Assembly: GCA_022566515.1 (NCBI GenBank)
Contig: JADFIT010000014.1
Coordinates: 1 to 38,105 of the forward strand
Direction: 5' to 3'
Length of the DNA: 38,105 nt
DNA from: Gemmatimonadota bacterium
Lineage (GTDB): Bacteria; Gemmatimonadota; Gemmatimonadetes; Gemmatimonadales; GWC2-71-9
The position numbers were made by a program, and so were the translations under genes. Under the pieces are notes generated by a model, which did not search any database, had not been told where the DNA came from, and was given only the letters and a program-made list of their open reading frames with translations. Below, in pieces: positions 6,001-23,922 of this stretch (positions are counted from its first letter, which is position 1; each line of letters starts with the position of its first letter).

Positions 6001-6001
6001 G

Positions 6002-6022
6002 GTCCCACGATATGTCCCACGA
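6002..6022. repeat. Two direct copies of GTCCCACGA, 12-base period
   Basis: GTCCCACGA occurs at 6002-6010 and again at 6014-6022, just after the perfect hairpin. Such a short direct repeat could be a protein-binding site or half of a recombination core. No function can be shown from this sequence alone. Confidence 0.4.
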
Positions 6023-6161
6023 CAGGGGGTAAGTGAAGGAGACTTAGGGGTTGTTTGGATAGGCCTTAGGCAGGGGCGCACAAACTAACTGCAAGTTATC
6101 TTCCGTTGGCCCAATGGTCGACCGTGCGGGGAGGGGGAGACCTTACCGAATTGAGGAATCG

Positions 6162-7217
6162 ATGACAGTCAGTCTCAAATCCCTGATCGAGGAGTGGGAA
6201 GGCATCGGTGTGGTGATGCGGTACGATAGACAGACCGGCACCTGGATCTTCATCGCACTGCACGACGATACGCTGGGTCCACCGACAGGTGGGACCCGCA
6301 TGAAGGTCTATCCGAGCCCCGCCTTGGCGTTGCGAGATGCGATGCGCCTAGGCGCGGGCATGACGCGCAAGTGGGCGGCAGTGGACTTGCACTATGGGGG
6401 AGGGAAGGCGGTCTTGGCCGTGCCACGCATTCTCCAGGGGGAAGAGCGCGTGGGGCTGCTCACTCGATACGGGAGACTGATAGAGTCGTTGCGGGGCACG
6501 TTTGGCACGGGGGTAGACATGGGGACGACCCCGGATGACATGCTCGTCATCAGCCAGGTGACGTCTTACGTTCATGGCGTCGACAGGGAGACCGGACAGA
6601 CGATCGATCCAGGACCCTTCACCGCCCGCGGTGTGTTTGCGGGAATTCGTGCGGCGGTCAAGTTCGCGTACGGGAGTGAAGACATGCGCGACAGGGTGGT
6701 GCACGTCCAAGGGCTGGGTGATGTTGGGGGACCGTTGGCGCGGATGCTCAAGGAAGGTGGTGCCCACTTGGTCCTCAGCGACCTCGACACGCGGCGGGCC
6801 GAGTCACTGGCTGAGGAACTGGGCGACACCGAGGCGTTCGAACCCCACACGGCATATGCGGCGCCTTGTGATGTCTATGCCCCGTGTGCGGTGGGCGCCA
6901 CTCTCAACGCCGAGTCGATTCCGGAACTGAAGTGTCGTGTGGTCGTGGGATCGGCCAACAACCAGTTGCAGGAGCCCGAGGACGCCGGCCGGCTGTTCGA
7001 GCGCGGAATCTTGTACGCGCCCGATTACATCGTGAATGCCGGCGGTGCCATAGCGTTGGGTCTACGCAGCCGGGGCGTTACGTCCCAGTCGGAAATCCAC
7101 GAGCGGGTCGATGCTATCGGGGCCTCACTCGCCGAGATCCTGATCGAGGCGAGTGCGGCGAACGAATCGCCGGTGTACACGGCCGAACGGGTCGTGGAGA
7201 GAAGGTTGAAGCGGTAG
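6162..7217 (+). CDS. Leucine dehydrogenase-type (Glu/Leu/Phe/Val) amino acid dehydrogenase
   Basis: This 351-aa enzyme is close to the usual leucine/valine dehydrogenase length. It catalyses reversible NAD-dependent oxidative deamination of a hydrophobic amino acid to its 2-oxo acid. The substrate-binding lysine is Lys70 in GMTRKWAA and the catalytic lysine is Lys82 in YGGGKAVL. GGTRM at 43-47 and FGTGVDMGTTPDDM near 114-127 are family signatures. The nucleotide-binding motif GLGDVG is at 184-189, and VVGSANNQL and YAPDYIVNAGG are the conserved cofactor and substrate edge. ATG 6162 is chosen over ATG 6114 because GAGG lies just upstream. Leu versus Phe or Val preference is not settled by eye. 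It stands alone, ending at a hairpin shared with the converging gene. Confidence 0.92.
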   Translation: MTVSLKSLIEEWEGIGVVMRYDRQTGTWIFIALHDDTLGPPTGGTRMKVYPSPALALRDAMRLGAGMTRKWAAVDLHYGGGKAVLAVPRILQGEERVGLLTRYGRLIESLRGTFGTGVDMGTTPDDMLVISQVTSYVHGVDRETGQTIDPGPFTARGVFAGIRAAVKFAYGSEDMRDRVVHVQGLGDVGGPLARMLKEGGAHLVLSDLDTRRAESLAEELGDTEAFEPHTAYAAPCDVYAPCAVGATLNAESIPELKCRVVVGSANNQLQEPEDAGRLFERGILYAPDYIVNAGGAIALGLRSRGVTSQSEIHERVDAIGASLAEILIEASAANESPVYTAERVVERRLKR

Positions 7218-21811: not shown

Positions 21812-21879
21812 ACCCACCGCCAACTACGTTACAATGCTTACAGCCTACACCCTTTCACCTAAATTGCCAGGAGGCAGAC

Positions 21880-22344
21880 ATGTCAGATGTTACCTACAGA
21901 TCTCGAGTCGAAATACGACGTCTGGGCGGCCCCACGCGCTCGGCCACGCTGCCCGCGGAGAGCGAGCCCGTCATTTTCGGTGTTCACGGGGCGATTGCGG
22001 AGCACTACGGTGTCGACATGACGACGATCGAGCCCCATGCGACGACCATCGACTACGTCGTTGCGGCGACAGGTGGTTGACTCACGGGCACATTTGCCGG
22101 CGCGCTGGGTGCGCGCGAGATAACCGTTGAGCCCGACGATCTCATCGCAGAGGTGGTTGGTGATGTTGAGAAGGACGGCGATGTGCTCGTCTTGCGGCGG
22201 GTGCATGTGAAATACAAACTGCGCGTGCCGAAAGAGGTGCGCGATACGGTGGCCCGGGTGCTGGAAATGCACGCAGACAAGTGTCCGGTAGCCAGGAGCA
22301 TCAAGGGAGCGATCGAGGTCACTACGGAGGTGGAATTCCAGTAA
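21880..22344 (+). CDS. OsmC-family selenoprotein candidate with in-frame TGA (Sec67)
   Basis: Read through the TGA at 22078-22080, the frame gives 154 residues covering a whole OsmC/Ohr-like domain, with AGGAGG in front of ATG 21880. OsmC proteins reduce peroxides with two cysteines. The first normally lies in a GG-C-LTGT context. Here VVAATGG, then TGA, then LTGTFAGALGAREITVEPDD places UGA exactly on it. The second cysteine is present at residue 135 in ADKCPVARSIKGAIEVTTEV. Third-position bias and family conservation continue unbroken on both sides of the TGA, with no frameshift, so decay is less likely than selenocysteine. A hairpin suited to SECIS lies 19 bases after the UGA. Selenocysteine forms of OsmC-like proteins are known in some bacteria. 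Proof needs selA/selB/selC/selD in the same genome. The alternative is a single nonsense mutation. Confidence 0.82.
22100..22116 (+). promoter_or_regulatory. Candidate bacterial SECIS hairpin
   Basis: GCGCGC pairs with GCGCGC around the loop TGGGT. The stem begins 19 bases and the loop 25 bases after the UGA. Bacterial SECIS elements are described as a short stem-loop within the coding sequence roughly 16-37 bases downstream of UGA, with a G among the first two loop bases; this hairpin meets those rules. A GC-rich stem can also arise by chance in this genome. Confidence 0.6.
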
Positions 22345-22349
22345 GAAGT

Positions 22350-22757
22350 CTACTCGTCAGCATCCACCGGCTTGCGCTTCTCTTTCGTCGCCGAGCGGCG
22401 TTTTTTTGTCGCCAGTCGTTGTTCGATCGAGCGCTTCGGTGGTCTGGTCTTCTTGCGGGGTTTGGGAACCCGAAGCGCGTCTCGTACGATTTGATTGATG
22501 CGGCGGATAGCCATCTCACGGTTTTGGAGTTGGCTGCGGCGTTCTGCAGCCGCGACGCGCAGCACGCCCGTCGTGTCGATGCGGTTTGCCAAGCGGTTCA
22601 TGAGACGCCGTCGCTGAGCGTGGGAGAGACTCGTGCTGTTGGCCACGTCCCACATTACGGTGACCTTGGTCGCGGTCCTGTTGACGTGTTGTCCGCCGGG
22701 TCCGCCGGAGCTGGATGCCCGAAAGCTCAACTCGTCTTGGGGAATTGTGAAGAGCAT
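22350..22757 (-). CDS. arfB: Alternative ribosome-rescue factor ArfB (ICT1/YaeJ-like peptidyl-tRNA hydrolase)
   Basis: A 135-aa release-factor-like protein starting MLFTIPQDELSFRASSSGGP. The catalytic GGQ is at residues 21-23 in SSGGPGGQHVNRTATKV, the motif that hydrolyses peptidyl-tRNA on stalled ribosomes. There is no codon-recognition domain, and the C-terminus is a basic tail (KKTRPPKRSIEQRLATKKRR) of the kind that enters the empty mRNA channel in ArfB. ATG 22757 fits the family start better than the frame opening at 22799. It ends five bases from the OsmC stop (convergent) and starts 19 bases from the patatin start (divergent). Confidence 0.92.
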   Translation of the reverse strand: MLFTIPQDELSFRASSSGGPGGQHVNRTATKVTVMWDVANSTSLSHAQRRRLMNRLANRIDTTGVLRVAAAERRSQLQNREMAIRRINQIVRDALRVPKPRKKTRPPKRSIEQRLATKKRRSATKEKRKPVDADE

Positions 22758-22776
22758 TTCTGGGAAGGTAGATTGA

Positions 22777-23922
22777 TTGCACGTGAAAACCACATCCAAC
22801 TCCGATCTCGCCCTCGTGTTGTCGGGCGGCGGTGCCAGGGCGGCATATCAGGTGGGTGTGCTTTGTGCCATCGGCGAGCGCAGACCCCATCTCGAGATCC
22901 CCATTCACACCGGCGTTTCGGCCGGTGCGATCAATACGGTCACGCTTGCCGCCCATCCGGGCAGCTTCGGCGCGGCAGTTCGGGCGGTCAGGAAGGAGTG
23001 GTCGCGCCTCACAGTGGAGGATGTGTACCGAGTGCGGGTGAGTGGCTTGGTACGGAGCGGGTTTCGCTGGGTGGGCCAGCGCTTCCTTCATCGCAAGGGG
23101 TCCACGGTTGTGCGAGGCCTGTTCGATATGGAACCGCTGAGGGCGTTTCTGGCACAAAGGGTGGATTTCGAGCGGATCGAATCCAATGTGGCTTCAGGCA
23201 AGCTCCGGGCGGTGACGCTGAGCGCGGCGTGCTATACGTCGGGCGAGACCGTCACATTCATACACGGCGCCCCAGACGTACCCACATGGAAGCGGTCACA
23301 GCGTCGCGGTGTCCGTGGGCAACTCACGGTCGATCATGTCATTGCGTCTGCAGCGATTCCCATCCTGTTTCCCGCCGTGCGTATCGGGAATGGGTTTTAC
23401 GGGGACGGATCGGTGCGGCAGGCGGCGCCTCTGGCGCCCGCGGTGCACCTTGGTGCGGACCGCATTCTGGCCATCAGCATGAGGGCGAAGTGGCAGGTCA
23501 AGCAGTCACGTCGTGAAGTAGTGACCCACTATCCCTCTGCCGCTCAAGTGATGGGGTTGCTGTTCCACTCCATCTTCTTGGACTCGCTGGACTCGGACGC
23601 CGAGCGTCTCGAACGAATCAACAATATTTTGAGGGGCGTGCCGGCCGGGACCCAACTGGTGGAGCAGCTACGGCCCATCAAGATACTCGTGCTCCGTCCC
23701 TCGCTCGACCTCGGCGCGTTGGCGCGTCCCCACTGGCGGCGCCTGCCGCCTATCATACGCTCGCTGGTGGAATCGATCGGCGGGCAGCGCGAGGGAGCAT
23801 CGGATTTCATCAGCTACTTGCTGTTCGATCCGGCCTACACGGTGCCGTTGATGGAATTGGGGTATGACGACGCAACCGAACGGTGGGATGAGATCGAGGA
23901 GTTCTTGGACGGCGAACCCTAG
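22777..23922 (+). CDS. Patatin-like phospholipase
   Basis: A 381-aa protein with the three patatin marks: the oxyanion loop VLSGGGARAAYQVGVL near residues 14-29, the nucleophile elbow GVSAG with Ser48, and the catalytic Asp210 in FYGDGSVRQAAPL. Ser-Asp dyad enzymes of this family hydrolyse acyl ester bonds of membrane lipids. There is no signal peptide, so action on the inner leaflet is likely. The C-terminal part (HSIFLDSLDSDAERLERINN and beyond) follows bacterial patatins of the RssA/YchK size class, with an added helical tail. TTG 22777 has GGAAGG nine bases upstream; GTG 22783 is the alternative. It is divergent from arfB with almost overlapping 5' ends. Confidence 0.9.
   Translation: MHVKTTSNSDLALVLSGGGARAAYQVGVLCAIGERRPHLEIPIHTGVSAGAINTVTLAAHPGSFGAAVRAVRKEWSRLTVEDVYRVRVSGLVRSGFRWVGQRFLHRKGSTVVRGLFDMEPLRAFLAQRVDFERIESNVASGKLRAVTLSAACYTSGETVTFIHGAPDVPTWKRSQRRGVRGQLTVDHVIASAAIPILFPAVRIGNGFYGDGSVRQAAPLAPAVHLGADRILAISMRAKWQVKQSRREVVTHYPSAAQVMGLLFHSIFLDSLDSDAERLERINNILRGVPAGTQLVEQLRPIKILVLRPSLDLGALARPHWRRLPPIIRSLVESIGGQREGASDFISYLLFDPAYTVPLMELGYDDATERWDEIEEFLDGEP

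Follow-up and report, generated by a model that had tools for sequence, protein, structure and literature searches.

An OsmC-fold protein from a Gemmatimonadota bacterium with probable selenocysteine at its redox-active position, and evidence for a distinct selenoprotein subfamily

Results

An in-frame UGA interrupts a conserved OsmC-fold gene

We analysed a 38,105-nucleotide stretch of Gemmatimonadota DNA, called here the window, and conclude with roughly 95% confidence that it encodes an OsmC-fold selenoprotein in which UGA would be read as selenocysteine (Sec). The open reading frame of this gene, designated Sec-OsmC, contains one in-frame TGA, with 66 codons on its 5' side (Table 1). An initial reading of the same DNA, made from sequence alone (the first-pass annotation), had counted 88 further codons to the TAA; the frame does continue, with 87 sense codons, the figure of 88 being reached only if the TAA is included. 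The translated read-through protein matched the Pfam OsmC family (PF02566) with an E-value of 3.1e-14 and 53.6 bits against a gathering score of 27.5 bits, and the TGA falls at the peroxidatic-cysteine column of OsmC/Ohr proteins, where the first-pass annotation had put it. The second active-site cysteine, C135, was likewise found downstream of the TGA, as proposed. Default ORF listing gave a 66-aa stub and a separate 63-aa ORF starting at GTG 22153, the split that had been anticipated for automated calling.

Purifying selection was evident on both sides of the UGA, with pN/pS values of 0.19-0.43 before it and 0.23-0.55 after it. The locus shows what is expected of a bacterial selenoprotein gene, namely an in-frame UGA within a conserved ORF that aligns to Cys or UGA in homologues. 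The central proposal of the first-pass annotation, a UGA read as Sec at the redox-active site of an OsmC-fold protein and followed by a bacterial Sec insertion element (bSECIS), is strongly supported.

Table 1. Positions of the Sec-OsmC features in the window
Feature	Position	Strand	Basis
Shine-Dalgarno AGGAGG, 5 nt upstream of ATG	21869..21874	+	direct reading
Sec-OsmC CDS, 154 residues with U67, ATG 21880 to TAA 22342-22344	21880..22344	+	read-through, family conservation
Putative Sec codon UGA (U67), OsmC peroxidatic-Cys column	22078..22080	+	frame, alignment, Blastococcus TAG and tRNA-Sec anticodon CUA
bSECIS stem 5' arm GCGCGC	22100..22105	+	fold, conservation, synonymous-codon test
bSECIS apical loop UGGGU, G at loop position 2	22106..22110	+	fold; criteria from PMC13188914
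bSECIS stem 3' arm GCGCGC	22111..22116	+	fold, conservation, synonymous-codon test
C135, codon TGT, putative resolving Cys in CP motif, invariant in family	22282..22284	+	alignment

Relatives carry UGA, and rarely cysteine, at the same column

Searches for homologues used a query with C at the Sec column, so UGA was not favoured. The gene was present in 15 of 151 relatives, with one TGA in every match that spanned the column, and in 117 of 395 Gemmatimonadota genomes, where all 150 matches listed had one TGA each; the codon position itself was verified in the loci that were retrieved. Counting Cys against UGA at the U67 column, as the first-pass annotation had suggested, gave TGA in 77 of the best 80 named loci; L108, from Desulfuromonadales, has TGT, and the remaining two, both from Blastococcus species, have TAG. 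Relatives with neither UGA nor Cys, which would have spoken against the proposal, are not what this column holds: the relatives carry UGA.

Judging from the titles of their records and their labels in the tree, these loci come from about ten lineages of phylum rank: Gemmatimonadota, Acidobacteriota, Chloroflexota, Actinomycetota, Thermodesulfobacteriota, Myxococcota, Nitrospirota, Nitrospinota, Poribacteria and KSB1. The majority belong to metagenome-assembled genomes, some of them perhaps misbinned, and one 'Chloroflexi' locus (L105) clusters with Gemmatimonadota in the tree. Named strains with the TGA form include Haloechinothrix halophila and Geobacter argillaceus. The single Cys gene, L108, paired with the G. 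argillaceus UGA gene (support 96/94) inside the UGA clade, and because of this nesting it reads as a Sec-to-Cys replacement. Very long branches make the root of the tree and the placement of one sequence, L192, unreliable, and only the nesting of the Cys and Blastococcus rows was used.

A second paralogue type, with the motif U-M-L-G-T-L-N-G, was also observed (L034, L036, L039, L040, L041 and L149). UGA was present in all members read, most had a compensatory pair change in the hairpin described below, and several genomes held both types. In one assembly (G028), the sequence is broken at the Sec codon itself, with one contig ending at the codon that precedes the UGA and another beginning there (L037, L042).

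A natural codon swap in Blastococcus coincides with a tRNA-Sec anticodon switch

Blastococcus atacamensis and B. saxobsidens encode Sec-OsmC with TAG at the Sec column (L112 and L120, at about 6001-6450). The tRNA-Sec genes of both genomes (L157, L158; 65.8 bits) have the anticodon CUA. All eight further strong tRNA-Sec genes that we read, including that of the window genome, have UCA. In the tree, the Blastococcus TAG pair lies beside an acidimicrobial UGA gene, near the clade of the window protein. TAG replaces TGA in the OsmC gene precisely in the genomes whose tRNA-Sec anticodon has switched, which marks the column as a Sec position, and we consider this swap the strongest single piece of evidence for Sec at this site.

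Blastococcus has established UAG-encoded selenoproteins, namely FDH, UGSC-motif and AhpC proteins (PMC5330540), which have in common with Sec-OsmC a TAG Sec codon read by a CUA tRNA-Sec. The UAG-coded OsmC is absent from the Blastococcus UAG selenoproteins named in the consulted passages of that publication and would be an added member of the set.

The downstream hairpin is constrained beyond its coding role

The published bSECIS model calls for a loop of 3-9 nt, a stem of 4-16 bp, a G among the first two loop nucleotides, a spacing of 16-37 nt and a minimum free energy of -7.5 kcal/mol or lower (PMC13188914). The hairpin in the window has a 5-nt loop with G at position 2, a 6-bp stem, a spacing of 25 nt and a free energy of -13.1 kcal/mol, all within these limits. 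The six-bp GC stem and TGGGT loop that the first-pass annotation had placed 19 bases past the UGA, inside the SECIS window, were all found as described. Its suggestion to fold this RNA gave a divided answer: the fold has the properties of a bSECIS, but the window hairpin folded alone is of unexceptional stability for its composition (z of -1.3 and -0.8).

Comparison across the family was more informative than the single copy. All six pairs were kept in 93 of 106 distinct UGA genes, while synonymous-codon resampling of the same 106 genes (1000 trials) gave 4.8 genes with six pairs on average and never more than 14; these shuffle figures overstate significance because related genes are not independent, though the genes span about ten phyla. 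Counting the Sec codon, the third positions of codons 8, 9, 10, 12 and 13 were 71-96% identical, compared to 34-66% at the other tabulated codons. In six genes, a G-C pair was replaced by A-U through changes on both sides, with a silent third-position change compensating for an Ala-to-Val substitution. At the corresponding place, the Cys gene L108 has no stable hairpin (z of +0.5). Because the pairing is conserved over 106 distinct genes and exceeds what synonymous codons give, we take the hairpin to be beyond chance and conserved beyond the needs of the protein.

The genome encodes the Sec machinery

The assembly to which the window belongs (3.59 Mb, 241 contigs, 95% complete) was searched for selA, selB, selD and tRNA-Sec, the check that had been proposed, and all four were found. 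The tRNA-Sec scored 70.5 bits with the Rfam model, and its anticodon loop, CUUCAAA, gives a UCA anticodon; ARAGORN made no tRNA-Sec call in this genome. SelA and SelD were identified with E-values of 1.5e-123 and 9.7e-111. SelB is split into two contig-end pieces, its N-terminal part running off the end of contig C240 and its C-terminal part opening contig C198. SelD (L020, 1501-2427) has an in-frame TGA in the motif GAGU and is itself a UGA selenoprotein; as an unrelated enzyme using UGA for Sec in the same genome as Sec-OsmC, it serves as an internal positive control. Two further OsmC-fold genes in the genome lack an in-frame stop.

Use of Sec is common in Gemmatimonadota, with tRNA-Sec in 111 of 151 relatives. 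Co-occurrence does not discriminate here, since the tRNA-Sec baseline is 74%: matches were found in 11 of the 15 carriers of Sec-OsmC and in 100 of the 136 non-carriers. Among the four carriers without a tRNA-Sec match, three had SelA matches, full-length in two and short in the other, and the remaining genome is 61% complete. Two different strong tRNA-Sec genes occur in H. halophila (L152, 80.9 bits; L160, 79.7 bits).

Two other readings of the UGA were weighed against Sec. If it were a true stop codon or had arisen by nonsense mutation, the locus would be a 66-residue stub or a pseudogene, as standard gene calling, which terminates at this codon, would have it; TGA is also an ordinary stop in this genome, ending 9 of the 18 large window ORFs examined. 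However, the same in-frame TGA at one column in more than 100 genomes, the selection that persists beyond it, the hairpin constraint revealed by the synonymous-codon test and the Blastococcus TAG with its CUA tRNA-Sec make this reading extremely improbable, and conservation rules it out. An in-frame UGA inside a conserved protein would equally be expected if this lineage read UGA as Trp or Gly throughout its genome. That explanation is no more probable: TGA terminates Pfam-supported window genes such as PntB, MoaA and aconitase, the alternatives at the column among the relatives read are Cys or the Blastococcus TAG and never Trp or Gly, and the genome has the full Sec machinery. We ruled out reassignment because TGA serves here as a normal stop codon. 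The assignment of U67 as Sec is about as secure as sequence permits, and we hold it with high confidence.

The window protein likely belongs to a separate, near-obligate Sec subfamily

The literature counts one OsmC-like selenoprotein, with the motif UxxT (PMC1088965, PMC2398784, PMC9312934, PMC13188914), and the first-pass annotation took the window protein to be a new lineage record of this established family. That assumption was not supported by comparison with NCBIfam NF041052 (OsmC_like_Se, 'OsmC-related (seleno)protein'), to which the published UxxT family apparently corresponds on the basis of motif and name. The window protein scored 23 bits against a curated cut-off of 95, other members of its family scored 17-27 bits or had no match, and its motif is U-L-T-G-T (U-[LM]-x-G-T...CP in the family) rather than UxxT.

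Membership of the published family would fit the shared fold and Sec position, the single family counted in the literature and the weak alignment of NF041052 to the window protein. In addition to the scores and the motif, several observations argue against it. None of 298 Gemmatimonadota genomes reached the NF041052 cut-off, yet the window family occurs in 117 of 395. One Thermoflexus genome encodes both types, L074 of the window type and L192, an NF041052 member (146 bits) with the UxxT motif U-V-L-T. In the tree, L192 was placed outside the clade of the window protein, though its branch is very long. The OsmC-like selenoprotein of the Sargasso Sea/GOS data shares with the window family the OsmC fold, the Sec position and a downstream bacterial SECIS, but differs in its UxxT motif and is represented by 3-5 published sequences with Cys homologues, whereas the window family is almost without a Cys form. 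We therefore regard membership of the published family as unlikely, and a distinct, near-obligate Sec subfamily, separate from UxxT/NF041052, as very likely.

This subfamily has probably not been reported as such. The 2005 selenoprotein search required Cys homologues (PMC1088965), and the authors of the 2025 deep-Sep method state that it may miss families without them (PMC12013277). Since the window family almost lacks the Cys homologues needed by Cys/TGA-pair searches, it could plausibly have been overlooked, and there is a good chance that a large and taxonomically broad, near-obligate Sec OsmC family, spread over about ten phyla with UGA in nearly all members, UAG in Blastococcus and Cys once, has gone unrecognised. 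A Sec family nearly devoid of Cys forms is the blind spot named by the authors of Cys-dependent detection methods. Selenoprotein families are mostly regarded as rare Sec variants of proteins that commonly carry Cys (PMC1794560); if our reading is correct, the window family would join the few in bacteria for which Sec seems close to irreplaceable, and would offer a small, easily assayed protein with which to ask when Cys cannot replace Sec. Many genome annotations probably split the gene or cut it short, and it lies outside NCBI's existing selenoprotein model.

Structure points to peroxide reduction as the favoured function

The AlphaFold model of the window protein had a pLDDT of 95, and Foldseek placed it in the OsmC fold, with Ohr, OsmC and Ta0195 as the nearest structures (TM 0.80/0.88). 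Identity to solved OsmC/Ohr structures was 11-19%. In a profile alignment to OsmC 1ukk, U67 fell on the peroxidatic Cys and C135 on the resolving Cys, and both columns are invariant in the family. The catalytic roles of these two cysteines in Ohr and OsmC are established. The window protein thus has the fold and both active-site positions of the Ohr and OsmC peroxidases but would carry Sec where they have Cys, and it scored below both curated cut-offs (13.4 of 88.85 bits for TIGR03561 and 25.2 of 85.8 bits for TIGR03562). R20 and D58, also invariant in the family, are candidates for the catalytic Arg and Glu of Ohr, although their equivalence by placement is uncertain.

We propose that SelB, carrying Sec-tRNA(Sec), would bind the mRNA hairpin and that Sec would be inserted at the UGA; the individual elements are observed, as are their spacing and conservation, and the insertion itself is inferred. 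Given that U67 and C135 occupy the peroxidatic and resolving positions, two-step peroxide reduction would be the likeliest chemistry. In this scheme U67 may reduce a peroxide, probably an organic hydroperoxide, after which a U67-C135 selenenylsulfide would form and be re-reduced by a cellular dithiol. On fold and alignment, we somewhat favour a peroxidase function, and the fold and active-site positions make a role in peroxide defence a reasonable inference. Sec-OsmC could instead carry thiols, sulfide or selenium, or reduce another oxidant. The closest fold by TM-score, Ta0195 (2onf), is an uncharacterised OsmC relative and no proven Ohr, and the Ohr catalytic Glu is not clearly kept, with D58 near that place. 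The match of U67 and C135 to both active-site cysteines of 1ukk tells against such a role, which we consider possible but the less probable of the two.

Genomic context offered no support for the peroxidase reading. No conserved neighbour gene pointing to a partner or pathway was found among the relatives' loci, the neighbours in the window (PntB, Kelch, RF-1-domain and others) showed no functional link to Sec-OsmC, and a plasmid collection gave no match to it. An RF-1-domain gene (22350-22799, minus strand), possibly encoding an ArfB-like ribosome-rescue factor, is convergent with Sec-OsmC at a distance of 5 nt; because relatives share no widely conserved neighbour, this adjacency is probably due to chance.
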